Origin: Bacillus sp. F19
Lineage (GTDB): Bacteria > Bacillota > Bacilli > Bacillales > Bacillaceae
Assembly: GCA_023823795.1 (NCBI GenBank)
Contig: CP085710.1
Coordinates: 2,692,001-2,756,000 of the forward strand
DNA length: 64,000 bases
Direction: 5' to 3'
The notes beneath the pieces are model-generated. The model saw only the letters and a program-made list of their open reading frames with translations. It made no database searches and had not been told where the DNA came from. Shown one piece after another: positions 5,689 to 20,111 of this stretch. The translations under genes were made by a program, and so were the position numbers. The number at the start of each line of letters is the position of its first letter. Positions within the stretch are counted from its first letter, which is position 1.

Positions 5689-6273
5689 TTAAAATTTTCC
5701 AACATCACTTCCTGGAATGGAAGTATGTGTTGTTGGTATTTCTGGTGCTTTTTTAGATGCAGAACGATTTGTTTCAGATCTTCCAGTTAACTCACTGCCA
5801 GCTTCTTTTACCTTTGAACCGATTGATGCCAGATCTTTTTGTGCGTCTTTAGCTGTAGAAAGTGTATCATTTGAAATTTGAACGGCGTCATTGACGTTAT
5901 CCATAACATCTTCATTTAAACGGTCATAGAGTTTTTTTGCCTCATTGATTGCATCTTTTAATGAATCTGCTGCACTTTTAAATTGTGATACCATTTGATT
6001 TTTGACTTCACCTGGATTTTCTTTTACTTGTGTAAAAACATCAAGAGATGAATCCTTCAAATTAACAGCTGAGTCTTTCACTTGATTTCGGGTTTTACGG
6101 TCAAATAGGGTGACTAGTCCCCCTACAACTGCACCTGCTAATATTCCCTTTACCAGCTTGCTGTTATTTTTATCTTTGCCTTTTTTTGCAATGCTTATCT
6201 CAGTCTTCGAAATTTCTGTTGGTGCTGGTTCTGATCCCAGTGTATTGTTTTGGTTTGTATTATAGATTGTCAT
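5689..6273 (-). CDS. YtxH domain-containing general stress protein
   Basis: The 194-residue protein has a polar N terminus, one Gly/Ala-rich membrane-type segment (GILAGAVVGGLVTLF, near residue 44) and a long amphipathic, charged helical tail, the pattern of YtxH/YtxG-like stress proteins. Its function in the family is unknown. A SigB promoter (6314-6340) lies upstream and GGAGGATT precedes the ATG, so it is probably induced by energy or environmental stress. Confidence 0.78.
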   Translation of the reverse strand: MTIYNTNQNNTLGSEPAPTEISKTEISIAKKGKDKNNSKLVKGILAGAVVGGLVTLFDRKTRNQVKDSAVNLKDSSLDVFTQVKENPGEVKNQMVSQFKSAADSLKDAINEAKKLYDRLNEDVMDNVNDAVQISNDTLSTAKDAQKDLASIGSKVKEAGSELTGRSETNRSASKKAPEIPTTHTSIPGSDVGKF

Positions 6274-6313
6274 TGTATTAATCCTCCTGTTTAGTTAATG
6301 TCATACTCCCTAC

Positions 6314-6340
6314 ATACCCACCTTCTTAATAAAATGAAAC
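6314..6340 (-). promoter_or_regulatory. SigB-type promoter of the ytxH-like gene
   Basis: On the minus strand GTTTCA (6335-6340) and GGGTAT (6314-6319) are separated by 15 bp, matching the SigB consensus GTTTAA-N12-15-GGGTAT. It lies about 40 bp upstream of the gene start. Confidence 0.75.
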
Positions 6341-6461
6341 CTATTAATTTAACACCTTATAAGATTTTTAATAATTTGGAATAATCTGTTCATATTTTCT
6401 TAGAAGATGTATAATTACTTGGGAACACGAAAGATCAATATTCGTTTGGAGGGAATGTCCA

Positions 6462-8276
6462 TTGGAAAAAACGATTGAAAAACGTTTATATCGCAGTGAA
6501 GTGCCAGCAGAACTGACATGGAATTTAGAAGATTTGTTTGAAACACATCAGGATTGGGAGTCAGAATTAACGACCATAGAACGGGACGCCGCACAAATCA
6601 GAAAATATAGAGGGAGGCTCGGTGACGGTGCAAACTCTCTATTGGAATGCCTTCAAGCTGAAGAGAAATTATTTAAAAAAATAGTGAGAGCCGGAACATA
6701 CATCAGCCTGCAGCAATCTGCAGACGGAACAAATCCCGAGCATCAAGGAAATTACTCACGGTTTGCCGCCGTTCATTCAAAAGCAAATGCAGATTTATCT
6801 TTTATAGAATCTGAACTATTGTCTCTTCCTGAGGGAACCATTGATGCATACATAAAGGAACAAAGCGGATTAGCGGCATTCAGCATAAAATTAAAAGAAT
6901 TGCTTCAGTCGAGAGTTCATCAGCTGTCAGAAGAAACAGAAGAAGTATTGGCAGCATTGGGAGATGTCCACGGTTCACCTTACCGAATCTATCAAACAAG
7001 TAAATCTGCTGATATGGATTTTGACCCAATTGAGGATGAAAATGGAAATGTTCTGCCGAATTCATTCGCTCTTTATGAAGACCGCTATGAATTTACACCG
7101 AATACATTTGTAAGAAGAAAAGCATTCGATTCTTTTGTAATAACACTGAAAAAATATAAAAACACTTTTGCAGCCACTTACGCTACTGAGGTGAAAAAAC
7201 AGATCACGGTTTCACGCTTTAGAAAGTATGATTCAGTAACAGACATGCTGCTGAAGCCCCAGCATGTGACAAAGGAGATGTATCATAATCAGCTTGATAT
7301 TATTCAAAAGGAACTAGCGCCCCATATGCGAAGGTTTGCCTCCTTGAAAAAAAGGGTCCTGCAGCTTGAAGAATTGCATTTTTGTGATTTAAAGGCACCG
7401 CTTGATACAGAGTTTAATCCTAAAACGACCTATACTGAAGCTTGCCGTGTGATCTTAGAAGCACTTGAAGTAATGGGCCCTGAATATACACAAATTATGA
7501 AAAAAGCATTAACGGACCGCTGGGTTGATCTGGCGGATAATGTAGGGAAATCAACAGGTGCATTCTGTTCAAGCCCTTACGGTGTGCATCCATATATTCT
7601 GATCACGTGGCAGGATACGATGAGAGGTGCTTTTGTACTTGCACATGAACTTGGCCATGCCGGACATTTCTATTTGGCAAACAAAAATCAGCGCATTATG
7701 AATACAAGACCTTCTACATATTTCGTAGAGGCCCCTTCAACATTAAACGAAATGCTGCTTGGCAGGCATTTACTTAAGAATACGCAGGATAAACAAATGA
7801 GACGCTGGGTCATTCTTCAGCTTCTCGGAACGTATTATCATAACTTTGTTACACATTTACTTGAAGGAGAATTCCAGCGCCGCGTCTATGAAGCAGCCGA
7901 AAAAGGCATCCCGATTACAGCTAAGATGCTTTGTGATCTTAAAGGGAATGTGCTCTCCTCTTTTTGGGGTGACGCGGTAACATTTGATGAGGGTGCCTCA
8001 TTAACTTGGATGAGACAGCCTCATTATTATATGGGTCTCTACCCTTACACGTACTCAGCTGGACTGACAGCTTCAACTTTGGTTTCACAATTGATAGATG
8101 AAGAAGGAAAACCTGCAGTAGACCGATGGATCGAGGTGTTAAAAGCTGGAGGAACCAAAAAACCAGTAGATCTATTAAAAGATGCAGGCGTGGATATGAC
8201 AAATCCTGAAGCCATCAGAAAAGCCGTCGCATATGTCGGCACGCTTGTTGATGAGCTGGAGAAAAGTTATGAATAA
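6462..8276 (+). CDS. pepF: Oligoendopeptidase F (M3B metallopeptidase)
   Basis: Cytoplasmic zinc peptidase that degrades 7-17 residue peptides. The 604-residue product has the usual length; HELGH (HExxH) lies near residue 394 and the downstream Glu ligand is in FVEAPSTLNEMLLG. The start is a TTG with GGAGGG 8 bp upstream; the nearby ATG at 6454 is out of frame. It is monocistronic, followed by a terminator and a repeat-rich spacer. Confidence 0.93.
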   Translation: MEKTIEKRLYRSEVPAELTWNLEDLFETHQDWESELTTIERDAAQIRKYRGRLGDGANSLLECLQAEEKLFKKIVRAGTYISLQQSADGTNPEHQGNYSRFAAVHSKANADLSFIESELLSLPEGTIDAYIKEQSGLAAFSIKLKELLQSRVHQLSEETEEVLAALGDVHGSPYRIYQTSKSADMDFDPIEDENGNVLPNSFALYEDRYEFTPNTFVRRKAFDSFVITLKKYKNTFAATYATEVKKQITVSRFRKYDSVTDMLLKPQHVTKEMYHNQLDIIQKELAPHMRRFASLKKRVLQLEELHFCDLKAPLDTEFNPKTTYTEACRVILEALEVMGPEYTQIMKKALTDRWVDLADNVGKSTGAFCSSPYGVHPYILITWQDTMRGAFVLAHELGHAGHFYLANKNQRIMNTRPSTYFVEAPSTLNEMLLGRHLLKNTQDKQMRRWVILQLLGTYYHNFVTHLLEGEFQRRVYEAAEKGIPITAKMLCDLKGNVLSSFWGDAVTFDEGASLTWMRQPHYYMGLYPYTYSAGLTASTLVSQLIDEEGKPAVDRWIEVLKAGGTKKPVDLLKDAGVDMTNPEAIRKAVAYVGTLVDELEKSYE

Positions 8277-8280
8277 CTAG

Positions 8281-8436
8281 AAAAGCGGAACCGACTGTTC
8301 AGACTCGGGCAGACAGATAAGAATTCACCCGAAAAGTCCGGGTTTGACTTTCCTGAGGGAATTTGTTCTGGCCGAGGGGCTAGGAGGTGGAGCTGGACAA
8401 TGAAAAGCGGAACCGCCCGGTTAGCGCAGGCAGACT
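8281..8436. repeat. Two copies of an AAAAGCGGAAC-type intergenic repeat
   Basis: AAAAGCGGAACCGACTGTTC (8281-8300) and AAAAGCGGAACCGCCCGGTT (8403-8422) share a core and are both followed by a GGCAGAC motif; a third copy lies at 22506-22540 after the aldehyde dehydrogenase gene. All three follow a plus-strand gene end. They look like a dispersed intergenic element of unknown role. Confidence 0.6.
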
Positions 8437-8489
8437 AAAAAGGATCCGGCAATTAAAGAGTTCGTAAAATAGTTTTGCCCTATAAATAT

Positions 8490-8517
8490 AGACCAGCTTG
8501 AATCAGCTGGTCTTCTT
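8490..8517. terminator. Terminator between pepF and recQ
   Basis: AGACCAGCT (8490-8498) and AGCTGGTCT (8505-8513) form a perfect stem with a T-rich 3' side on the plus strand. It lies between convergent genes. Confidence 0.75.
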
Positions 8518-8541
8518 ATTTATCTATACCGTTCTTCCCTG

Positions 8542-10662
8542 TTAGTGAACCAGTTCTCTTTTTACAATGGCCGCTTTAATCATAAAATAGGTCACCTCAT
8601 CAGGAAGGCATTCTTTCAGCGGCTTCAGCAGGCCATAGCCATGTGTCCGGATCGCCTCTTCGATTTGCCTTTCATACTTGGCTGGGATCCAGGCATCAAA
8701 ATCTATGTCAAGTCCTTCTTTGGCACAGCGCAGCAAGTGATTTTCAATTGTTATCACCGACAAATCTCTTTTTTCAGCAATTTCTTCTACACTCAGACCT
8801 TCTTTGTATAAGTGCAGGGAGTCCAGATAAGATGATTCTTTTCGCTCTTTTTTAACAGGAATCAACGTTTGAGCTGGCTGCTCTATATTAGGGTTCTCGT
8901 TTACATATGCGGTTATTTTCTCAATGAAGATTTCACCATACTTATGCTGTTTCGCTTCTCCAACCCCCTGAACTGCAAGAAATTCATCCAGCGACTTCGG
9001 CATTTTGGCACTCATATCCTTTAAAGATTTATCTGAGAAAATAACGAATGGCGGAACATTTTCCTCTGTTGCAAGCTGTTTTCTCAGCTCTTTAAGCTGC
9101 ATGAACAGCCCGTCGTTCGCTGCAGCTTCAACAATTCGCATTTTTTCCTTTCTGTGCACTTCTAAATTGCCCTTCAGAACCTCTAGTCCCTTCTCTTCGA
9201 CTACCAGAACGGGAAATTGCCCGCCAGTAATCGAAATATATTGTTCTGAAGTCAAATAATCAATAAATTCACTGACTTCTTTAACTGTACGATGCTTTAA
9301 AATGCCGTATGTTGAAAGCTCATTAAATTTAAAATCCAACACCTTTTTGTTGGATGAACCCGTCAGTACCTGACTGATCATGGTTTTACCGAATCTTTGC
9401 CCCATTCTGATCATGCAGGAAAGAACCATTTGCGCTTCTTTTGTTACATCCTCATGCGTGCGTTCGTCCCGGCAATTGCTGCATTTTCCGCACGGTTCAG
9501 CTTCACTGTCCCCAAAGTAATTCAAAATAAATGATTGGAGACACCCTTCCGTATGGCAATAATCGCGCATTTGATGCAGCTTAACAAGCTCTGCCTGCTG
9601 TCTTTCTTTATGAAATGTTGACTGTTCAATTAAATAACGCTGAATTTGAATATCCTGCGGGGAATACAGCAAAAAACATTCACTGTCTAATCCATCTCTT
9701 CCAGCTCTCCCCGCTTCCTGGTAATAGCTTTCCATATTTTTAGGAAGCTGATAGTGTATGACATACCTGACATTGGATTTATCGATTCCCATGCCGAATG
9801 CGTTGGTCGCTACCATTACAAGAATATCATCCCTTAAGAAAAGGTCCTGCTGCAGCCCGCGCTGAACATCACTCATTCCCCCGTGGTATCTGCCTGCTTG
9901 AATTCCTTTTTTAATAAGACGTTCATATATATGATCTGCTTCTTTCCTCGTAGCAGCGTAAATAATTCCTGATTCGGTGCCATTTTTTGCTATGTATCTT
10001 TCAATAAAGTCGTATCTGTTTTCACCTTTGCTTACATTGAATGATAAATTCCCCCTCTCAAATCCTGTTACTGTGGTATATTGCTCTTGTATTCCAAGAG
10101 AGGTGCATATATCTTCTTTAACAATTGGAGTCGCTGTAGCTGTCAATGCTAGAAAAACGGGATTTGATTTAAGCTCCGTTTTTAATTCTTTTATTCTTAA
10201 ATAGCTCGGCCGGAAATCATGACCCCATTGTGAAATACAGTGGGCTTCATCGACTGCAACCATAGAAACATTCATTCTTTGCAGCTGCTCTAAAAACAAA
10301 GATGATTCTAATCTTTCAGGCGCAACATATAAAATTCGATAATTTCCTGCTTCTAAATCTAATAGCCTGGCACTTGTTTCTGTATGGGAGAGTGTGCTAT
10401 TGAGGAAGGTTGCAGGGATTCCTGCCTGATCAAGAGAGTCCACCTGATCTTTCATGAGTGAAATAAGGGGAGAAATGACGAGGGTAATGCCAGAAAATAA
10501 GAGTGCGGGGATTTGATAACATATGGACTTTCCGCCTCCAGTCGGCATAATGCCTGCTGAATGATTTCCATTCAAAACGCTGCTGATAATTTCTTCCTGT
10601 CCCGGACGGAATGATGAATAACCAAAATAGTGCTGCAAATGCTGTTTCGCTTGTTCTAACAA
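8542..10662 (-). CDS. recQ: ATP-dependent DNA helicase RecQ
   Basis: A 3'-5' DNA helicase for recombination and fork repair. The 706-residue protein shows Walker A (PTGGGKSICYQ), DEAH (VDEAHCISQWGHDFRPSY), motif VI (QEAGRAGRDG), the four-Cys zinc site (CLQSFILNYFG..CGKCSNC), an HRDC domain near residues 515-590 and a C-terminal winged-helix-like tail. It is closer in layout to RecQ than to the shorter RecS of Bacillus. Confidence 0.93.
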   Translation of the reverse strand: MLEQAKQHLQHYFGYSSFRPGQEEIISSVLNGNHSAGIMPTGGGKSICYQIPALLFSGITLVISPLISLMKDQVDSLDQAGIPATFLNSTLSHTETSARLLDLEAGNYRILYVAPERLESSLFLEQLQRMNVSMVAVDEAHCISQWGHDFRPSYLRIKELKTELKSNPVFLALTATATPIVKEDICTSLGIQEQYTTVTGFERGNLSFNVSKGENRYDFIERYIAKNGTESGIIYAATRKEADHIYERLIKKGIQAGRYHGGMSDVQRGLQQDLFLRDDILVMVATNAFGMGIDKSNVRYVIHYQLPKNMESYYQEAGRAGRDGLDSECFLLYSPQDIQIQRYLIEQSTFHKERQQAELVKLHQMRDYCHTEGCLQSFILNYFGDSEAEPCGKCSNCRDERTHEDVTKEAQMVLSCMIRMGQRFGKTMISQVLTGSSNKKVLDFKFNELSTYGILKHRTVKEVSEFIDYLTSEQYISITGGQFPVLVVEEKGLEVLKGNLEVHRKEKMRIVEAAANDGLFMQLKELRKQLATEENVPPFVIFSDKSLKDMSAKMPKSLDEFLAVQGVGEAKQHKYGEIFIEKITAYVNENPNIEQPAQTLIPVKKERKESSYLDSLHLYKEGLSVEEIAEKRDLSVITIENHLLRCAKEGLDIDFDAWIPAKYERQIEEAIRTHGYGLLKPLKECLPDEVTYFMIKAAIVKRELVH

Positions 10663-10755
10663 AATAATATCCCTCCTGAAAAATAACTGTACTCCAATTT
10701 TACATGCGCGGACATAAATTAGCTATACCTCTAGCTGAAATCGAATTTTGTATAA

Positions 10756-10786
10756 ATAAAAAAAACTCTAAAATAGAGTTTTTTTA
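10756..10786 (-). terminator. Terminator of the first ydjO-like gene
   Basis: AAAAAACTCTA (10760-10770) and TAGAGTTTTTT (10774-10784) form a tight hairpin overlapping the stop codon, with a T-rich tract on the minus strand. Confidence 0.75.
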
Positions 10787-10981
10787 ATACTTTTTATGAT
10801 TATTTATAACCTCAAGCACTTTAGTACTTGCTTTCATTTCGCTTTTGCAGAGCGGACATACAGGTGTTTCGCTTTCACTGCTTTTAAAGTTATCGCGAAC
10901 CCATCCTTTGCAGTCCTCAGACGTGCAAATCCATACCTTCGTTTCCTCTGTTACGATATCTTCTGGTTTTTTTCTATACAT
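10784..10981 (-). CDS. YdjO-like cysteine-rich protein, copy 1
   Basis: The 65-residue protein has a zinc-ribbon-like layout, C-x(4)-C in VWICTSEDCKGWVRDNF and CPLC in the second half, as in the cold-inducible YdjO family of B. subtilis. The role is unknown. A paralogue lies 770 bp away (11552-11761) with the same EACxGWxRxxF pattern, so the pair probably arose by duplication. Confidence 0.75.
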   Translation of the reverse strand: MYRKKPEDIVTEETKVWICTSEDCKGWVRDNFKSSESETPVCPLCKSEMKASTKVLEVINNHKKY

Positions 10982-11234
10982 TCATGACTCTCCTCTCAGG
11001 TTCTGATTAATGAATAGCTTGAAACAGTTTTAGAAAAATCATAAACGTTAACTGGAAGAAAAAAATTCACCAATTATAAAAAGTACCCATTTCGTGATGA
11101 CTCTTTATAAGTAGTGAATTAAAAATGCAATACTGCTTGATTATTTTATATGTTTTTACTGCATTTGTCAATAGATATTCCTATTTGAGGATAACCGCCC
11201 CCATGAATTAAGCTCGTTTCAGGAGGTGCCAATC

Positions 11235-11499
11235 ATGGACTTAATTTTATATCTGATCTTTATACTCTTATACTTTATATTATTTGGTTTTGGATTCTTT
11301 TTAATAACGAGAAAGGCAACAGTCCCGGGAATTATTTTGGTTCTCATTACTCTCGGCATCAGGAGCTTTAATTGGAGCTCTAGTATTTTGGAGAAAAACG
11401 AAAAAACCGATTATGCTGATTGGCAGTGCCGTATCTTTACCAATACCAAGCTCCGCTGCTGCTAATGCGTTTGAACTTATCTTTATCCTTTCTCTATAG
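11235..11499 (+). pseudogene. Small membrane protein gene with a frameshift
   Basis: A well-placed CAGGAGGTGCC precedes the ATG. Frame 1 encodes hydrophobic MDLILYLIFILLYFILFGFG and reaches about 11355; the coding-like signal then moves to the next frame (ASGALIGALVFWRKTKKP and on to a stop at 11497-11499). Reading both gives a roughly 88-residue two- or three-helix membrane protein of unknown function. One extra base near 11340-11360, real or an assembly error, explains the break. Confidence 0.55.
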
Positions 11500-11515
11500 A
11501 TCACATCCAGAAAAA

Positions 11516-11551
11516 GACTCAAGGCTGCCGGCTAAATCGGCAGCCTTTGTT
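11516..11551 (-). terminator. Terminator of the second ydjO-like gene
   Basis: AAGGCTGCCG (11521-11530) and CGGCAGCCTT (11538-11547) pair perfectly; a T-rich stretch follows on the minus strand a few bases later. It could also end the plus-strand membrane gene. Confidence 0.7.
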
Positions 11552-11761
11552 CTATTTACTGAAAGGATTATAGTCCATTTTTATCTGCGGCAGCTCACGC
11601 ACTTCTTCTGTCATCTGACTTCCGCACATCGGGCAGGACAGATCTTCCGTTGAAAAATCTTTTCTCATCCAGCCATTACAAGCTTCCGATTCACAAGCGT
11701 ATACTGTTGTGTCTTCAATAATTGTAACGGGTTCTTCAGCACCCTTTTTCGCAAAGTACAT
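11552..11761 (-). CDS. YdjO-like cysteine-rich protein, copy 2
   Basis: The 69-residue form starts MYFAKKGAEEP and carries C-x(4)-C (YACESEACNGWMRKDF) plus CPMCGSQM, the same four-Cys pattern as copy 1 at 10784-10981. The ATG at 11761 is preferred over the upstream one at 11800 because AGGAGTTATGCTC precedes it and family members start MYF. Function unknown. Confidence 0.72.
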   Translation of the reverse strand: MYFAKKGAEEPVTIIEDTTVYACESEACNGWMRKDFSTEDLSCPMCGSQMTEEVRELPQIKMDYNPFSK

Positions 11762-12005
11762 GAGCATAACTCCTTTTTTTATATAGTATACGCTTTTCAA
11801 ACAAAAAATATTTATGTCATTTTTCTTTTTTCAATTGGAATCGAAACTTCATAAAATATGTCTTTGAAATCGTATTCTCATTCGTGTATCAAAGCAGTTT
11901 GATTCATTATCTACTATTCAATCGTTTGATGTTTTTCAGGATACTTATCATTTTCAGCTTCTTTTTTAGTAGTATTTATGCAATAATTAATACTAATTAA
12001 GTCGT

Positions 12006-12041
12006 ACAAAAAAGCCGGATGAATGATTCAATCCGGCTTTA
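12006..12041 (-). terminator. Terminator of the sensor kinase operon
   Basis: AAAGCCGGAT (12011-12020) and ATCCGGCTTT (12031-12040) pair perfectly and a T run follows on the minus strand. Confidence 0.85.
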
Positions 12042-12044
12042 GCA

Positions 12045-13157
12045 CTATATATGAATAGGCATTGAAATGCTGAAGGCTGACCCTAGACCTTCTTCACTTG
12101 CAACTTCAATTCTGCCATTATTCGACTTAACGATGTCAAAACAAACAGCAAGACCTATGCCTGTTCCTTGTTCCTTGGTTGTGAAGAATGGTTTAAAGAG
12201 AGAATCTACCGTCTCCTTTCCCATTCCTATTCCATTGTCTGTAATCTGAATAACAACATGGCGGTCTTCTATTCTGGTTGTAATTGCAATCATTCCATTA
12301 TCTTTTTGATGACTGATTTGAATGGCTTCCATAGCATTTTTAACAATATTCAGGAGCACTTGTTTCATTTGCTTGACATCAACCGTAACCATTAAGTCAG
12401 GGTCATTAACCGTGTAAGTCAGCTCACAATTTGATAGTATAGCTTCACTTTTACAAATCAGAATAATGTCATTTATCAGGTTTCGAAGCAAAATGGGCTG
12501 TCTGTCTTTGTTCTGCTCTTTGGAGTTATCTAAAAACTCATAGATGATATCGTTTGCACGATTTAATTCTTCTAATGCAACATCAGCATAATGGCCTTTT
12601 CCGATTTCGATTAAGTGAGGCTTTAGCAGCTGCAGAAAACCCTTTACGCTTGTAAGCGGATTACTGATTTCATGTGCAATGCTTGCGGCAAATTGTCCAA
12701 CCGTTGCCAGGCTGTCCTGCTTTATGGCAATCTCCTTCATCTGCTGGAGCGATTTCTCGAGCTGCTCCTGCTTTTCAAGCAAATTAAGGTTAGCATAAAG
12801 CAAATCATCTTCAAGCGTTTTAACAGCCTGGTAGATTTGATCAGCACTTTCTTCTTTATCAATGCAAAAGATATGAATAAAGTTTTTGCCCTCATATTGA
12901 ATATAGACATCAAATAATGTCATCGGATTTGATTTCGTTTTTAAATTCAGTTCAATTTTTGTAATGGACGGCGTGTCCAAAATGAACTTAGCTGCTTTTT
13001 TCTTGCTTCCAATTCCTACTATATCGAGGAAATGGCTTTCCTCATCAAAGATATTAAACGTGCATTTTGAAACTGATACGATCTTAAGCTTTCGATCGAC
13101 CAGAAAATAAGGAAATGGTATTTTGTCATATTTACTTGCGATTAATTGCATTTCCAT
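12045..13157 (-). CDS. Soluble sporulation-type sensor histidine kinase
   Basis: The 370-residue protein has no membrane segment. A PAS-like N-terminal region (IPFPYFLVDRKLKIVSVS) is followed by a coiled linker, the phosphoacceptor H-box AASIAHEISNPLTSVKGFLQLL and an ATPase domain with an N-box (VKNAMEAI), DNGIGM and GTGIGLAVC. The domain order is that of cytosolic Kin-type kinases that feed Spo0F; no response regulator gene is nearby. The ATG at 13157 follows CAAGGA and overlaps the upstream cobalamin-sensor gene by 26 bp, indicating coupled translation. Confidence 0.85.
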   Translation of the reverse strand: MEMQLIASKYDKIPFPYFLVDRKLKIVSVSKCTFNIFDEESHFLDIVGIGSKKKAAKFILDTPSITKIELNLKTKSNPMTLFDVYIQYEGKNFIHIFCIDKEESADQIYQAVKTLEDDLLYANLNLLEKQEQLEKSLQQMKEIAIKQDSLATVGQFAASIAHEISNPLTSVKGFLQLLKPHLIEIGKGHYADVALEELNRANDIIYEFLDNSKEQNKDRQPILLRNLINDIILICKSEAILSNCELTYTVNDPDLMVTVDVKQMKQVLLNIVKNAMEAIQISHQKDNGMIAITTRIEDRHVVIQITDNGIGMGKETVDSLFKPFFTTKEQGTGIGLAVCFDIVKSNNGRIEVASEEGLGSAFSISMPIHI

Positions 13158-13824
13158 GGCGATCATTCCTTGAGTTAGATTTTTCAATCCAGCTGCCGAG
13201 CTGATCAATATTTTGAATCACCACGGTGTTGGGCGGGCAGTAATAATCGAGATCAAAATCGTTTGTCAGTTTCCCTGCGAGCATAATCGTCGGAGAATAA
13301 TTCAGTTTTTGCAATTCATCCATATAGTAAAAAACAGTCGGGATGTTGCAGATGACACTAGTGGAGAAAGCAATCACATCCGGCTTCCATTTCTCTGCAT
13401 ACTGACAAATATGATCCATTGAAACATTTGACTCAATACAGCTTGCTTCCCAGCCATATTCTTTAAATAAGAAAGAAGTCATCATCATTCCTATCGTATG
13501 TTCTTCGTTTCTCATAGAAAGCAGCATAACACGCGGTTTCATTGTTGCTTGCGATTGTATATTAGGTTCTTTATGTAATTGTTCCACTTTTAAATAGTAA
13601 TAACTGGCGATCATAGATTTGCAGACAGCCGCTGCTACATGTTCATCCGCCACAGTCGCACGGTTCATTTCCCACAATTCTCCTACATTGTCCATGGTAT
13701 CTGATAGAAATCCATACACTTGAGTACTGGTGGTATCTTCTTCAATCATACTGTTTAAGTAGTTCCATGAAAGACTGTGTTCGCCATCGATAAACAATTG
13801 ACTCAACTCTTTAACGGGATTCAT
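13132..13824 (-). CDS. Cobalamin-binding (CarH/LitR-like) sensor domain protein
   Basis: The 230-residue protein has a B12-binding four-helix cap and a Rossmann-type cobalamin domain but no MerR DNA-binding head. The cap shows W-x9-EH (WEMNRATVADEH), the motif that closes over the upper ligand in CarH photoreceptors. The cobalamin domain has EEHTIG in place of the usual DxHxxG, keeping the lower-ligand His. It overlaps the kinase gene, so it probably controls that kinase by light or B12 status; this is inference. ATG at 13824 is preferred to a TTG four codons upstream. Confidence 0.75.
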   Translation of the reverse strand: MNPVKELSQLFIDGEHSLSWNYLNSMIEEDTTSTQVYGFLSDTMDNVGELWEMNRATVADEHVAAAVCKSMIASYYYLKVEQLHKEPNIQSQATMKPRVMLLSMRNEEHTIGMMMTSFLFKEYGWEASCIESNVSMDHICQYAEKWKPDVIAFSTSVICNIPTVFYYMDELQKLNYSPTIMLAGKLTNDFDLDYYCPPNTVVIQNIDQLGSWIEKSNSRNDRHGNAINRK

Positions 13825-14056
13825 AGAAATCACCAACCAATCGTTTTCATCTTCTCATCTGCCTAAAAACAGCTGTCAAGAGAGAATATACGGTAAATGG
13901 CATTATAGTTTAAGGGTAACACATAACTAGACAACTAGAAACAAATATTCGTTCGCAATAGTATATTTCATAAATCTTTACATACTGCCTCTCTCTTATG
14001 AGAAAAGACAGAGTTTGATACAATAAATAAGAGAAGATTTGGAAAGGATGCTTTAA

Positions 14057-15229
14057 ATGAATGAGAAATTATTTTATACCTCCCCTAAAACTTTTGAGTG
14101 GAAAACAGCGGTTACGGGCACAGAAGAACGCAACGGGTTAAAGCTGTTAAAATTAAAGGAAACCGCTTTTTATCCCGAAGGCGGCGGACAGCCTGCTGAT
14201 CATGGCTGGATTGAATCTATTTCAATTGAAGGCCTGCTAGAAGACGGAGAAGAAATCTATCATATCGTCTCTCGCTTTCCATCTGAAAAAGAAGTCACTT
14301 GTAAAGTAAACAGCAAACGGAGAATCGATCATATGCAGCATCATTCAGGTCAGCACCTCTTATCTGCTGTCTGCCTTGAATTATTTGATTATCAAACAGA
14401 AAGCTTCCACTTAGGAGCTGACACGGTAACAATTGATTTAAGGACGCCTCAATTAACCTCTGAGCAAATGAAGCTCATAGAGAGGAAAAGCAATCAATAT
14501 ATCTTTGAAAATAGAAAAATACATACGTTTTTCGCTGAAGAAAATAAATTGCGTGATTTACCGCTGAGAAAACTGCCTGATGTTAAAGAAAAGATCCGGA
14601 TTGTTCAAATAGAAGGAATTGATACGTCTGCCTGCTGCGGCACCCATGTTGAGCGCACGGGTGAAATCGGAATGCTTAAGCTTATTAAGACCGAAAAACA
14701 GAAAGGTATGATCCGTCTTCATTTTAAATGCGGTTTCCGTGCTCTATCGGATTATCAAAACATGCAAGAAACCGTTCAATTTGCAGGACAGTTTTTCCAA
14801 ACGTCCGCGAATGAAATTTCGGCAAGATTAAAGGCATTGGATCAGGAAACAAAGCTGATTCAAAAAGAAGCAGAGCAGCTGAGAGCAGAAAATGCAGCTT
14901 TTACTGCAGAAAAAATGGAACTTGAACAAAATGGTTTGTTGGGTCATGGGCTGTTTGAAAAGAAAACTACAAAAGAGCTGCAATTGATTGCCTCCCGTTT
15001 ACTAGAAAACGGAAAAAAATATGCTCTTCTGGCATCAATCAGCGAAAATTATGTTCTTTTCTCACAGAAAGGCACTGTTCATGCTGGCACCTTATTTAAA
15101 ACCAATCTTGCTGACTTCGATGGAAAAGGCGGAGGCAGCGAAAAGCAGGCCCAGGCGAAATTTTTTACTAACTCCGAAACAGAGCGCTTCTTTTTACAAA
15201 TAAAAGAAAAAATAGACCAGCTTATATAA
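14057..15229 (+). CDS. AlaX-type alanyl-tRNA editing protein with DHHA1 domain
   Basis: A freestanding editing enzyme that hydrolyses misacylated Ser- or Gly-tRNA(Ala). The 390-residue protein has the GGGQPAD segment, zinc ligands in HHSGQH (near residue 95) and CCGTH (near residue 194), then a coiled region and a C-terminal DHHA1 domain ending with GKGGGSEKQAQAKF. This long form (AlaX-L) corresponds to the editing half of AlaRS. GGAAAGGATG precedes the ATG. Confidence 0.9.
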   Translation: MNEKLFYTSPKTFEWKTAVTGTEERNGLKLLKLKETAFYPEGGGQPADHGWIESISIEGLLEDGEEIYHIVSRFPSEKEVTCKVNSKRRIDHMQHHSGQHLLSAVCLELFDYQTESFHLGADTVTIDLRTPQLTSEQMKLIERKSNQYIFENRKIHTFFAEENKLRDLPLRKLPDVKEKIRIVQIEGIDTSACCGTHVERTGEIGMLKLIKTEKQKGMIRLHFKCGFRALSDYQNMQETVQFAGQFFQTSANEISARLKALDQETKLIQKEAEQLRAENAAFTAEKMELEQNGLLGHGLFEKKTTKELQLIASRLLENGKKYALLASISENYVLFSQKGTVHAGTLFKTNLADFDGKGGGSEKQAQAKFFTNSETERFFLQIKEKIDQLI

Positions 15230-15245
15230 GCGGTCTATTTTTTAA
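15211..15245 (+). terminator. Terminator of the alaX gene
   Basis: AATAGACC (15211-15218) and GGTCTATT (15232-15239) pair and continue through an inner GCTTA/TAAGC stem; a T run follows. The stop codon lies inside the hairpin. Confidence 0.82.
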
Positions 15246-15410
15246 ATGCCAAATGTATTCCGCCCTTTACTGAAATAGATTGGCCTGTATGTAATCAGAA
15301 TCTTCAGAAGCAAGGTAAGCGACTGTCCTCGCAATGTCTTCAGCAGTCCCCATGTGCTGCAGCGGAATGCTTGATTGATAAGCTTTTTGCCTGCTTTTAA
15401 AGATTTTTTT
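15235..15410 (-). pseudogene. SDR oxidoreductase C-terminal remnant
   Basis: Reading leftward the frame gives IPLQHMGTAEDIARTVAYLA followed by SEDSDYI, the conserved C-terminal part of short-chain dehydrogenases. A one-base slip then moves the expected TGQSISVKGGIHLAF tail to another frame. The nucleotide-binding and catalytic regions are absent, so this is the tail of a deleted gene. Confidence 0.7.
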
Positions 15411-15538
15411 ATTGTTGCCATATGATGTTTCTAAACAGTTAAAGGATGATATTCTTCCCTAATATAATCACAATTGGTAAATGATACAAATTTAACCTCC
15501 ATATCTTTATTTCTTAACAAAGCGTTCTAATGAAGGCT

Positions 15539-15811
15539 TCACTTCTTCTTAACGAAAGTACAAAAATACCAGCCTCCTTCACGAATGATGGGTTTTAAGT
15601 CTTTCATTTTCATATTGGATTGGTCCGCTATCGAAGAAAGCTCCTGTTTTGTAGGTAAAGCATAAAGATTATCAAATGCAGTAAAGAAACTATTAAATAC
15701 ACTTGAAAACTGCTTACCGTGCTTATGTTTCCTTATCGGAGTATTGATGGATATCACCCCGCATCCCGATGAATCCCAAATTGAATGGCTGGCTTTCTCA
15801 TAACAAGGCAA
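15539..15811 (-). CDS. Uncharacterised ORF, possible gene fragment
   Basis: The 90-residue frame ends with MKDLKPIIREGGWYFCTFVKKK, which resembles the last strand of some class I methyltransferases, but no SAM-binding motif is present. The start sits directly after the terminator of the GNAT gene with no ribosome site. It is probably a 5'-truncated remnant, like the neighbouring pieces at 15235 and 16781. Function not assigned. Confidence 0.4.
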   Translation of the reverse strand: MPCYEKASHSIWDSSGCGVISINTPIRKHKHGKQFSSVFNSFFTAFDNLYALPTKQELSSIADQSNMKMKDLKPIIREGGWYFCTFVKKK

Positions 15812-15840
15812 ATAAAAAACGCTTTCCTAAAGAAAGCGCC
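15812..15840 (-). terminator. Terminator of the GNAT gene
   Basis: CGCTTTC (15820-15826) and GAAAGCG (15832-15838) form the stem, and the minus strand continues into a T-rich tract. Confidence 0.75.
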
Positions 15841-15844
15841 TGTT

Positions 15845-16693
15845 TTACGAAGAAAAACTAATCATGATCGAATCTTGAATCGGCTGATACCCTATTTTTT
15901 GATAAATGCTGTTTGATGTTGGATTAGAGAGGTCAGTATAGAGCGTGCAAAAGGAAAAATCTTTTAACAAGTGCTCGCTAAGCACAGCAACGCAGCTGCT
16001 TGCGTACCCATTACCCCTTAATTCATCTGGAGTATAGACGAGCGAAACGCAAATTCCATTTTTCGTGGTCCTTGATTTCTTTGCCATTGATACAGGTTTG
16101 CCTTCGGCCATCCAAAGGAAGACTGATTTCTCTGAAATAAACTGCTTCATTCTTCCTGCCGCCTGCAGTGCTGTAATTGGAGGCTCGTTTGTATAATTCA
16201 TAAAATCCACCATCCATTCTGTTAGGAGGGGAAGATGGGCTAGTTCTGCCAAAACAAATTTGCCGTCACTGCGTTTTTGCCTAGTCACTTCATGAAGACG
16301 ATAAATCTTTTGTTCCATTACAATTTCAGCTCTGTCCTCTGTTTCGATCGACCATATTTTCGCGAATGCCTCTGTCCATTTCCGTTCTCCTACCACACCA
16401 GGTATATGTAAACCTTTCTTAACTAGTGCGCGGACTGTTTCAAGTAGAATTGTCTCAGTCATTCCATCCTCATTAAAAGACAGGATCAGATTATGCGGAG
16501 GTGTCATCAGCATCGTTAGTGCTAGCTCTCCGTCTTTAACCACCGCAGCGGTATATACATCTGAAGCAGGAATCGTCCGTTTGAAAGCTCCTATAAGTCC
16601 TAGCATAAGGTTATTTTCTGCTTCTTTTTTCAATAGAAAAGGTTCCGCTAATTCAATAAATCGACTTCTATCTGTGTATTCTGTCAGTTTCAT
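15845..16693 (-). CDS. GNAT family N-acetyltransferase
   Basis: The 282-residue protein has a diverged N-terminal half and a C-terminal GNAT fold. The acetyl-CoA motif is TPDELRGNGYASSCVAVLSE (Q/RxxGxG/A pattern), followed by LYTDLSNPTSNSIYQKIGY, the typical motif B. The substrate is unknown. AGAGGTG precedes the ATG and a terminator follows, so it is monocistronic. Confidence 0.85.
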   Translation of the reverse strand: MKLTEYTDRSRFIELAEPFLLKKEAENNLMLGLIGAFKRTIPASDVYTAAVVKDGELALTMLMTPPHNLILSFNEDGMTETILLETVRALVKKGLHIPGVVGERKWTEAFAKIWSIETEDRAEIVMEQKIYRLHEVTRQKRSDGKFVLAELAHLPLLTEWMVDFMNYTNEPPITALQAAGRMKQFISEKSVFLWMAEGKPVSMAKKSRTTKNGICVSLVYTPDELRGNGYASSCVAVLSEHLLKDFSFCTLYTDLSNPTSNSIYQKIGYQPIQDSIMISFSS

Positions 16694-16753
16694 CTGATTT
16701 CACCTCTGCTATATAATTAGCTTTCAGCTTTAGAAATTCCTTTGCAAATAAAA

Positions 16754-16782
16754 TAAAAAACTCCGGCTTTTTTGCCGGAGTT
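16754..16782 (-). terminator. Intrinsic terminator
   Basis: AACTCCGGC (16759-16767) and GCCGGAGTT (16774-16782) pair perfectly and a long T-rich tract follows on the minus strand. It belonged to the now decayed PLD-type gene. Confidence 0.82.
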
Positions 16783-17106
16783 AAAAGGCTGGAAATCTGA
16801 AAAATTTCTGAACGGCATAGATCGCACGCTTAATAAATGGCATGTCATCTCTGTACTTTTCGAAATCCAAGGTGTAATCAGCACCGTCATTTTTCCATAG
16901 TTTGATAAAATAACCTTCTACTTCCTTCATGACTGGAGTTCTTCTTCGACCGGCCGATTTGGAAGACCGATTTTCTCCTGACCGAAAGCATTTTGATTCG
17001 GATCAAGAATCATTTTGATTTCTGCACCGCGATTAGACGCGGCAACGAGGGAATCAATGACTTTTCGATCTGCGAGGTAAAACATACCAATCCAGATTTC
17101 ATCGCC
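16781..17106 (-). pseudogene. Phospholipase D-like protein remnant
   Basis: Reading leftward, EIWIGMFYLADRKVIDSLVA followed by ASNRGAEIKMILDPNQNAFG is typical of the second half of a PLD/cardiolipin-synthase-like domain. A stop then interrupts it, and a second open stretch (MKEVEGYFIKLWKNDGADYT onward) supplies a C-terminal tail. The HKD catalytic motifs are missing, so both the N terminus and an internal segment have been lost. Confidence 0.6.
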
Positions 17107-17131
17107 TTACTCTGTATTTGTTTGCTTCTGA

Positions 17132-17620
17132 CTATTTCGCTTGAGGAAAAACACGCTTTATCATTTCGCTAAATTCATCTGCAAGTCCGGCAACCGGCTC
17201 TCCGCCGCGGATTTTATCTCCATAATCTTTCATACGGTCAAAAAAGTCCGGGTTTTCAGAGACGTATACATTGTTAAGATCCCTGTCCGTTGATCTGACT
17301 TGATCTGCTACCTTGTCCTTGACTTCATTTGAAAGCTTCCCTTTAGGATCTCCTTCCAGCACCACGGCTGCATACGCATTATTGTTTGTTACGATGACGT
17401 TTGCATATTTTATTTCCTCTAAATCAGCCACCTTTTTTGCGGCATCATCCGCTACATCCATTTGGTTTTGCTCATTTGTTTGTTCATCATACGTGACATT
17501 TTTCAGCTCATTGTTATTGATATTATCGTTTTCACGGGCATTGTTATCCATTCCGCATCCTGCACTTATCATGAGGGAAAGGACAATGCCCGCTCCAGTT
17601 AACAGCTTTCCTTTTTGCAT
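17132..17620 (-). CDS. YhcN/YlaJ family sporulation lipoprotein
   Basis: The 162-residue product begins with a lipoprotein signal peptide and lipobox (LMISAGC, Cys near 22), then an Asn-rich linker and the YhcN/YlaJ domain (ADLEEIKYANVIVTNNNAYA). Family members are forespore-made lipoproteins of the spore inner membrane that influence germination. GGAGGAATTAAGTT precedes the ATG. TGCATA with a weak SigG-like -10 lies about 35-60 bp upstream (17652-17681). Confidence 0.88.
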   Translation of the reverse strand: MQKGKLLTGAGIVLSLMISAGCGMDNNARENDNINNNELKNVTYDEQTNEQNQMDVADDAAKKVADLEEIKYANVIVTNNNAYAAVVLEGDPKGKLSNEVKDKVADQVRSTDRDLNNVYVSENPDFFDRMKDYGDKIRGGEPVAGLADEFSEMIKRVFPQAK

Positions 17621-17725
17621 AACTTAATTCCTCCATTCATTTCATTGCCATTATTTTTTGCTGAAATGAAGGATTTATGCAAAAAAAGAATGTTTTTCTT
17701 TCTTCAATCACATTTTCATATTCCG

Positions 17726-18090
17726 TCACGTCACGTCTCGCCATGTTAAAACAAACCCAGTATCCTCATTAAGATGATTCTTTAATCGATCAACGGCGAT
17801 TTGAGCAGTGAAGCGGTTAAATAGTTTGATCTGCGCACTATGCGGAAAAGGTTCGCTGGTGAGGATTTTCTGCTCTCGTTCATATATCCCATAAATCCTT
17901 CAGGACCTTCCATTCCAACGTACAGTCCAACCTTTTCTAATATCTGTCTTGCCTTATTATTAAACCAGATTATATGAAAATCATTATCACAAAATATGAG
18001 CCCTTCTCCAATGCTGTTCAGCAGCGCGTAAACGTTTATATTCTCTAAAATGGAGGTTTTATTATCAAGTTCAGTCTTCCCCCTAAGGCG
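17726..18090 (-). pseudogene. PAS-domain protein remnant
   Basis: One frame gives SIGEGLIFCDNDFHIIWFNN then KARQILEKVGLYVGMEG, a clear PAS core; near 17890 the reading moves to another frame (GIYEREQKILTSEPFPHSAQ) and ends at 17726. No start codon is available. Only the PAS-like part remains, so the original output domain, if any, is unknown. Confidence 0.6.
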
Positions 18091-18160
18091 TTCTTACATA
18101 TATAAATTATAAACATTTCTTACTTTTGGAAAGGATAAAATACCTGGAATGAAAAAAGCA

Positions 18161-18200
18161 CAGAAAACCCGCAGGTCCATTGCGGCTGCTGGTTTTCGCT
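18161..18200 (-). terminator. Probable terminator of gdh
   Basis: AAAACC (18164-18169) and GGTTTT (18191-18196) with partly paired GC-rich interior form an imperfect hairpin just after the gdh stop. Confidence 0.4.
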
Positions 18201-18201
18201 T

Positions 18202-19000
<799 letters not shown>

Positions 19001-19855
19001 CTATCGTTTTGTATAACCGAGTAAGACTCCGCCTGCGATAATCAATACACAGCCGATTATGACAAAAATAATTTGTTTTTTTGTTTTCTTTTCGCCAAGC
19101 AGAAAAATTCCGCCGAGTGTCGAAATGATGATTCCGGTCTGCGAAAGAGAGAAGCTTGTGGCAACTCCTATTTTCTGAAGAGAGAGAAGCAGTCCCAAAT
19201 TTCCCGCTGCCCACATTAACCCTGTTAAGATATTGCGAAGTGCAAATTTATCAAAAGGCTTATGTCTCGCAGTTAAAGCTGCAGCAGCTGCAACCATCCC
19301 GATTGCCTGTGGCAAAATAGCTGCCCAGCCGTTAATTTCAAAATATCTGATGATAATGACATATCCTATGTACCCTAATGAAGAAATAAATAAAATCAGT
19401 AATCCTTTTTTGAGGCTTTTGCCTGCATCTTTATCGTCTTTTTGCCCGATTGAAGTAAAAACAACACCGCCAATAATTAATAGAATGGCGATGATTCCAA
19501 GAATGACCGTCATTTTCGTATCCCATTCTTTAAATAGAAGAACACCGAATAGAGTTGTGCCCATCAGCTGCATACCTGTTGAAATAGGCACTGTTTTAGA
19601 GACGCCAATGTATTTGACGCTTGCGAGCTGATTTAATTGTCCAACGGTCCAGAAGATACCTGATACAATCCCGATTGACCAGACCAGAGGGGTTAAATCA
19701 GGGTTTGAAAAAAAGAACATGACAAGGGAGAATAAAAATGCTCCAATGGTAATGCCGAGTGTCTGACTGTAAGCATTTCCTCCAAGCTTTACACTGACAA
19801 GCACAAGGCTTCCCCAGGCAACAGCAGGAATTAATGCAAGAAGTATACCGATCAT
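19001..19855 (-). CDS. glcU: Glucose uptake protein GlcU
   Basis: A 284-residue GRP/DMT-type transporter with about ten membrane helices, beginning MIGILLALIPAVAWGSLVLV. Family members import glucose (or ribose) by proton symport, and in bacilli glcU is cotranscribed with gdh in the forespore. The ATG at 19855 follows GGAAAGGAAATC; a longer frame to 19963 runs through the promoter. A CATACTA SigG -10 lies just upstream (19878-19884). Confidence 0.9.
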   Translation of the reverse strand: MIGILLALIPAVAWGSLVLVSVKLGGNAYSQTLGITIGAFLFSLVMFFFSNPDLTPLVWSIGIVSGIFWTVGQLNQLASVKYIGVSKTVPISTGMQLMGTTLFGVLLFKEWDTKMTVILGIIAILLIIGGVVFTSIGQKDDKDAGKSLKKGLLILFISSLGYIGYVIIIRYFEINGWAAILPQAIGMVAAAAALTARHKPFDKFALRNILTGLMWAAGNLGLLLSLQKIGVATSFSLSQTGIIISTLGGIFLLGEKKTKKQIIFVIIGCVLIIAGGVLLGYTKR

Positions 19856-19877
19856 GATGATTTCCTTTCCATGTATG

Positions 19878-19904
19878 TAGTATGAGTATCCATTTACAGC
19901 ATGC
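19878..19904 (-). promoter_or_regulatory. Probable SigG promoter of glcU-gdh
   Basis: The minus strand has CATACTA (19878-19884), a perfect SigG -10 sequence, 22 bp upstream of the glcU start. A GCATG (19900-19904) fits the -35 consensus but at 15 bp instead of 17-18, so the -35 is uncertain. Confidence 0.55.
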
Positions 19905-20111
19905 ATCAAAAATAAGAGCAGGTGAATTAAGCAGGTCAGTGTTAAAAAAAGAGCCTGCTGCACTTCTTAAATTTATGGTTTCCTGCTAATTGAAAAATTA
20001 ACACGCTTCGTCATGAATCTCCTACACCTTTCCACTAAAACAAAAGCATAAACTTTAATGTTTAGAAAATGAGTATTTTCTTCATACTGATAGCTGGAAA
20101 GGATGATCATA

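Follow-up and report, generated by a model that had tools for sequence, protein, structure and literature searches.

The conserved unit identified in this analysis is a B12-binding sensor plus a PAS-like adaptor, because the same pair drives STAS or diguanylate cyclase outputs in relatives, and the output behind the adaptor is exchangeable (histidine kinase, RsbR/YtvA-like STAS protein, or diguanylate cyclase with a divergent adaptor). The window, i.e., the whole 64,000-nucleotide stretch of Bacillus sp. F19 DNA that was analysed, holds the kinase version, in which a stand-alone sensor gene overlaps the gene of a soluble histidine kinase. The recurrence of a sensor-plus-partner pair with a swapped output suggests, at the level of sequence, a reusable sensing module. 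For the window, we consider it fairly probable that the two genes make up one transcription unit for a two-protein sensor, in which the B12 protein would contact the PAS-like domain and the following helix of the kinase and alter its autophosphorylation. The STAS and cyclase partners, as well as the photoglobin-like and ABM-family genes described below, lie outside the window and therefore escaped the initial annotation of this stretch.

The sensor and kinase genes of the window

13132-13824, minus strand: stand-alone B12-binding sensor CDS (P0001), ATG start, 230 aa
13606..13812, minus strand: four-helix cap domain (B12-binding_2), residues 5-73, Pfam 4e-8
13267..13533, minus strand: Rossmann B12-binding domain, residues 98-186, Pfam 7e-12
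13639..13674, minus strand: upper pocket motif W51-x9-E61-H62 (sequence; H62 is Tyr in 7/7 sister species)
13489..13506, minus strand: E107-x-H109-x-x-G112, presumed lower axial ligand loop (predicted from sequence)
13420..13434, minus strand: degenerate GxxxP position, E131...S135, lost in 8/8 genus members
13132..13157, minus strand: overlap of the sensor and kinase reading frames, 26 bp
13167..13171, minus strand: AAGGA, likely kinase ribosome-binding site within the sensor gene, nine bases before the kinase ATG (sequence)
12045-13157, minus strand: soluble sensor histidine kinase CDS (P0002), ATG start, 370 aa
12846..13124, minus strand: PAS-like adaptor domain, about residues 12-104, common to STAS and DHp-stub partners elsewhere (alignment, model)
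12720..12848, minus strand: long helix or coiled coil, residues 104-146, probable docking and signal helix (AlphaFold model, pLDDT about 46-60)
12513..12698, minus strand: HisKA (DHp) domain with phospho-acceptor H162 (Pfam, alignment)
12054..12380, minus strand: HATPase_c domain, intact N and G boxes (Pfam, alignment)
12011..12040, minus strand: terminator-like hairpin with a short U-run, directly 3' of the kinase stop (z = -4.97)

The coding regions come from a simple ORF script, and the 26-bp overlap of a stand-alone B12-binding gene with a soluble kinase gene, as described earlier for this stretch, was confirmed. A longer kinase ORF is possible from a TTG at 13208; the ATG start (M-E-M, once M-E-T) is common to the aligned class A relatives, with M-E-L in L063_8. 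The next larger ORFs flanking the pair are YdjO-like (11555-11800) and alanyl-tRNA-synthetase-related (14057-15226). A consensus scan returned no terminator at 12011-12040, and a promoter scan gave three weak matches, fewer than in shuffles and none near or before the sensor start. A by-eye reading of the ORF list from 6000 to 20000 gave no response regulator next to the pair; the kinase therefore probably signals to a regulator encoded elsewhere, for which a sporulation-type phosphorelay would be plausible. Elsewhere in the window, the frame of a short-chain dehydrogenase (18380-18988, minus strand; adh_short 2e-61) ends at 203 aa; this end looks early and the tail odd, and the gene may be frameshifted.

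Both B12-binding domains of the sensor pass the Pfam cut-offs, and each of the two pocket motifs occurs once in the sequence. The AlphaFold model (mean pLDDT 92.8) consists of a four-helix cap and a Rossmann domain only, and neither the model nor Pfam gave any DNA-binding domain, including the MerR-type domain of CarH/LitR, in agreement with the initial description of W-x9-EH and E-x-H-x-x-G motifs in a protein that lacks one. At 230 aa and without a globin, the sensor is not a photocobilin-type fusion. The photocobilin 8j2w was the top structural match of the model (E 1.5e-10), with entries for methionine synthase and CarH ranking next. Similarly, a sensor profile built from 57 sequences and compared to structures matched photocobilin (2e-22), CtMerR (8jbs; 8e-20), methionine synthase (~4e-11), CarH (~3e-10) and AerR (2.6e-6). 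Cobalamin would be bound between the helical cap and the Rossmann domain; H109 is retained in 21/21 kinase-linked and 61/61 STAS-linked sensors, and the source genome has a cobalamin adenosyltransferase match (3.7e-61). The dN/dS values over the genus pairs compared were 0.08-0.23 for the sensor and 0.02-0.18 for the kinase (where dS was finite), and both genes appear to be under purifying selection in the genus. A separate MerR-type, CarH/LitR-like B12-binding gene is also present in the source genome (L189, C1:3392855-3393853).

The kinase matched HisKA (2e-12) and HATPase_c (5e-22) and carries H162 and the boxes NIVKNAMEA, DNGIGM and GTGIGLA. It has no transmembrane-like stretch, with a maximum 19-residue hydropathy of 1.23 vs 2.61 in one membrane kinase used as a control. 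Its AlphaFold model was modest (mean pLDDT 70.0, pTM 0.43), with a PAS-type strand-helix-strand order over residues ~1-100 and then a long helix, and several of the top full-length Foldseek matches were PAS/LOV-kinase structures, e.g., 4gcz, at low TM-scores (about 0.39). Pfam called no PAS domain in the window kinase's adaptor, PAS_9 was weakly matched by 3 of 13 adaptor members (best 0.02), and an adaptor profile compared to the PDB returned three weak matches, none of them to a PAS protein. We call the adaptor PAS-like on the basis of the model and the full-length matches to PAS/LOV kinases, and weakly of Pfam. The kinase core resembles ZraS and KinB, ZraS outscoring KinB. Its soluble core of HisKA and HATPase domains is shared with the sporulation kinases KinB and KinD (the structural match to KinB has 34-35% identity), whereas the kinase reaches 164.7 of the 775 bits of the KinD cut-off and has a PAS-like input tied to a B12 sensor.

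Linkage of sensor and adaptor across genomes

The gene-neighbourhood survey proposed for the pair showed that the linkage is conserved, and wider than first supposed. The pair was found in 8/8 genus genomes (the window's and seven others) and in other genera. Among 81 family genomes (sensor matches <1e-20), the stand-alone sensor was present in 28, one of them (G080) with an eroded copy, and a partner of the kinase, STAS or stub type adjoined it at 34 of the 40 places with a fetched neighbourhood, L054 holding two pairs. The six places without a partner were L066, L072, L073 and L075 and the fragments L083 and L084.

The order survey covered 219 genomes, evenly drawn from a larger group, with the sensor (E <=1e-25) and adaptor (E <=1e-6) profiles run separately. 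The sensor was matched in 95 genomes and the adaptor in 94, with both in 89, the sensor only in 6, the adaptor only in 5 and neither in 119 (Fisher odds ratio 353, kinship ignored). Overall, 102 of the 111 adaptor matches lay immediately behind a sensor in the same orientation, or 99 of 108 by genes, with three genes that were matched in two pieces each counted once, and the linkage was seen in 37 of the 100 genera surveyed. The proposal that a B12-sensor-like domain acts on a kinase instead of on DNA is the best reading of the pair and was strengthened by its linkage in the genus, in other genera and across the order. In the sensor frames compared, all but the two of greatest length (601 and 387 aa), match places and frame lengths gave no sign of a sensor fused to an adaptor. 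A chance neighbourhood of sensor and kinase was ruled out by the order-wide linkage. A plasmid-borne origin was also rejected; tblastn against plasmids returned six distant records (<60% identity) from Streptomyces and Skermanella.

The nine adaptor matches that were not directly downstream of a sensor comprised kinases without a sensor (L175, L178, L179), adaptor-only proteins (L180-L182), a case with the sensor split over two reading frames (L176), a decayed adaptor-STAS gene (L177) and a genome whose sensor and partner lie on separate contigs (L183 and L184). Adaptor-kinases without a sensor match were found in three genomes, one of which is 83% complete. The adaptor-only proteins are ~140 aa long, have no adjoining sensor and occur in two genomes that also hold complete pairs; they are possible competitors for the sensor. 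No adaptor match was found behind 14 of the 113 sensor matches, namely three of the ABM-globin-sensor type of the window's genus, one remnant in the window's genome, one piece of a split gene (G132), three in G082, G186 and G291, and six in sensor-only genomes. Four of these last six neighbourhoods were examined (all but G181 and G256); a GGDEF protein adjoins the sensor in three of the six genomes (L185, L186, L188), of which one has a just discernible adaptor (1.3e-4) and the other two gave no adaptor match, and L187 is a truncated sensor adjoining ABM and globin genes.

Sensor and adaptor distances were correlated (0.83, or 0.66 as a partial correlation given ABM), with 0 of 1000 permutations as high (45 loci, kinship ignored). 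Shared descent can explain part of this co-divergence, as expected if the linkage were real and the proteins never touched, being co-transcribed only since they serve the same stress response. We regard this as quite improbable, because the co-divergence goes beyond that explained by ABM and what the three partner types (kinase, STAS and stub) have in common is the PAS-like adaptor rather than the output. Sensor and partner also decayed together in G080: H62 and H109 are gone from its sensor, and its partner is truncated after the coil. Hardly credible is the alternative in which the sensor carries a corrinoid for a methyltransferase, in the manner of the MtgC/MttC type, and has the kinase as its accidental neighbour: the fold is in common and there are weak NCBIfam matches to corrinoid proteins, all far under the cut-off, but CarH scores about equal in NCBIfam, the EH cap motif is present, no methyltransferase was seen among the named neighbours (a minority of all neighbours), and the adaptor linkage extends over many genera.

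Exchangeable outputs of the pair

At the best 80 of 294 loci, the partners of 81 sensors were STAS proteins (58), kinases (13) and others of the stub type (6), with none in four cases; ten rows added for the tree are excluded from these counts. These 80 loci are the named ones, and the query pattern held VADEH, so that the retention of EH among them is a selection effect. One STAS partner was compared to the PDB and matched best 2mwg, a 'blue-light photoreceptor' (3.4e-8) that we take to be YtvA, followed by RsbR-type entries (5.9e-5 and weaker). YtvA is a LOV-STAS protein. Similar to YtvA and the RsbR stressosome proteins, the STAS partner has a PAS-helix-STAS layout and matches the linker and STAS of 2mwg, whereas in the present module the chromophore would sit on a separate protein, and the partner in the window is a kinase. 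A trans-acting sensor that works on the PAS domain or coil of its partner is the most likely reading, because the adaptor is linked to the sensor while the output behind the adaptor is swapped.

Through the GGDEF neighbours (L185, L186, L188) the module may reach c-di-GMP too. Six stub-type partners (L094, L095, L106, L142, L149, L155) adjoin a kinase of ~1200 aa, which by eye is a CheB-CheR-PAS-kinase fusion (sequences L095, L142) and possibly a fourth wiring of the sensor.

In the sensor tree (91 rows), the partner labels were strongly grouped, with 8 changes compared to a shuffled mean of 28.2. The window groups with the kinase branch of Metabacillus lacus, a set of 12 rows of which 10 carry the kinase label (support 99/92); another kinase branch, of 7 rows, stands apart from it. 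The stem branch of the genus is long (0.86) and meets the long row L063_7, a kind of join that may be false according to a warning of the tree tool.

The sensor-linked kinases form a set of 24 distinct proteins (8 from the genus, 13 from the named loci and 3 from one sister genus). The phospho-acceptor His is kept in 11 and missing in 13 of them, so phosphoryl output is not a general rule; three kinases without a sensor retain it. This loss would fit a partner that is mainly a binding or scaffold protein, e.g., an ATP-dependent sink or inhibitor of other kinases, with phosphoryl transfer secondary or lost, as the N and G boxes, and the helix that follows the H box, can still be recognised in most of the 13 kinases without His, and DHp-only stubs exist. 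However, the window kinase and those of 7/7 sisters retain H162 and the ATP boxes, and we consider a mere scaffold rather improbable.

The chromophore pocket and its possible mode of action

The SignatureFinder signature of light-responsive cobalamin proteins consists of GxxW, EH, GxxH and GxxxP. The window sensor has GxxW and EH (G48, W51, E61, H62), H109 of GxxH with Asn instead of Gly three residues before it, and no GxxxP (E131, S135). Among the eight genus sensors, that of the window species alone has the His of EH, which reads EY in 7/7 sister species and differs by a single base (CAT vs TAT). The G and P of GxxxP are missing in 8/8, the first G of GxxW is missing in 4/8, and Glu is found at the CarH His132 position in 8/8. 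This Glu alone is no objection to photosensing, because Gln replaces the upper-ligand His in SasPcob (PMC11796333). Judged by these residues, the light-response signature is eroded in the window's genus, which counts against a simple CarH-like photosensor. The label 'CarH-type' given to the protein therefore holds in part: the window sensor shares with CarH/LitR the cap and Rossmann B12 module, W-x9-EH and the lower His, whereas CarH/LitR have a MerR domain, the window sensor lacks GxxxP and has Glu at the position of the cobalt ligand H132, its sisters have Tyr in place of His62, and the nearest structure is a photocobilin.

An alternative explanation is that the sensor of this genus is blind to light and reports the cobalamin or redox/ligand state to the kinase, an AdoCbl photoswitch having turned into a B12 gauge. 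The lower His and the W are retained in the genus while EH and GxxxP are eroded, the long stem branch indicates much change, and purifying selection persists; moreover, in CtMerR the AdoCbl pocket receives hydrophobic contacts from the Pro of GxxxP of the adjacent monomer (PMC11796333). The EH of the window species, taken as a reversion to the canonical motif, speaks against this explanation, which we judge unlikely, though it deserves serious consideration.

In the mechanism that we favour for the window, the sensor and kinase genes would be co-transcribed as one unit and the small protein would hold cobalamin between its cap and Rossmann domain. A change at the cobalt would then move the W/E/H cap helix; in the wider family that change would be the light-induced loss of the adenosyl group, and in this genus possibly an event that involves another form of cobalamin or a ligand. 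The sensor would dock on the PAS-like domain and the following long helix of the kinase, and this docking would alter kinase autophosphorylation. A comparable contact has been proposed in Rhodobacter: the SCHIC domain of AppA, which resembles AerR in structure, touches PpsR at the helix that follows a PAS domain, and AerR was modelled on the PAS/Q-linker helix of CrtJ in the same manner (PMC9144470). AerR/PpaA with CrtJ/PpsR likewise pairs a stand-alone B12-binding protein without a DNA-binding domain with a PAS-containing regulator on which it acts in trans, as is proposed here, where the PAS call comes from the model, the full-length Foldseek matches and, weakly, Pfam. The two systems differ in that CrtJ binds DNA, whereas the partner here is a kinase (in the window, hence not a CrtJ/PpsR repressor), a STAS protein or a diguanylate cyclase; they also belong to different phyla, and the sensor profile gave AerR the weak match listed above.

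The outputs of B12 domains named in PMC11796333 are HTH, DGC, a biliverdin domain, GAF and MEDS, and the words kinase and STAS are absent from its main text. For SasPcob, a link to STAS and SpoIIE is predicted (PMC10979010), and bilin-binding globins are associated with B12-binding proteins, including in Myxococcales (PMC10151467). Among the matches listed from the open-licence literature (titles and abstract starts), no description was found of a Bacillales B12 sensor that has a PAS-STAS or PAS-kinase protein as its partner. The photoglobin and gene neighbourhoods with B12 domains were reportedly described by Schneider in 2022, and that work may already show some of the present neighbourhoods.

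Globin and ABM-family genes accompany many of the relatives. The best 80 of 294 loci, each taken up to about 6 kb to either side, held ABM, globin and adaptor in 46 cases, the adaptor only in 21, globin and adaptor in 6, ABM and adaptor in 3, none of them in 3, and ABM and globin without an adaptor in 1. The globin profile weakly matched phycocyanin (6e-4) and the photocobilin globin (0.13), and the Pfam Phycobilisome scores of the globin (0.0014 and 0.021) were below the cut-off. Within the family, the globin was found in 24 of 81 genomes and in none without the sensor; G045, G048, G050 and G080 have the sensor without it. The ABM-family, haem-monooxygenase-like enzyme could supply the bilin. 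In the relatives with ABM and photoglobin-like genes, the arrangement resembles a photocobilin whose parts have become individual proteins. Photocobilins (SasPcob, AbDPcob) and photoglobins offer the nearest solved structure and sequence to the B12 domain, with the upper-ligand His replaced as in SasPcob, whereas their globin and B12 domain are fused and here each of globin, B12 domain and output has a gene of its own, frequently accompanied by one of the ABM family. We tentatively propose, with slightly more doubt than belief, a plug-and-play two-protein photoreceptor in Bacillales, in which the B12 sensor (often with a separate photoglobin and an ABM enzyme that could make its bilin) docks on a PAS adaptor with swapped outputs (kinase, His-less kinase, YtvA-like STAS protein, diguanylate cyclase), and the window's genus shed the globin from the kinase operon and rewired the chromophore pocket.

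B12 photosensing has so far mostly been described from proteins fused to their output, and a trans-acting sensor with its own adaptor would be a departure from this. If true, it would provide a natural set of matched sensor-output pairs across many Bacillales and would place stress (STAS) and kinase signalling of bacilli under a possible green-light or B12 input. Should the plug-and-play reading hold, two light colours could reach stress, sporulation and c-di-GMP networks via one interface. The chromophore motifs, the globin and the kinase His are lost one by one along the series, so the role of each part could be separated.

The pair in the window has no adjoining globin gene, and the source genome's copy is broken: L084 (C1:3471666-3472673) consists of remnants of a globin and a second sensor with stop codons, beside proC (named by eye). 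Intact ABM-globin-sensor versions in a neighbourhood similar to that of L084 were found in four sister species (L066, L072, L073, L075).
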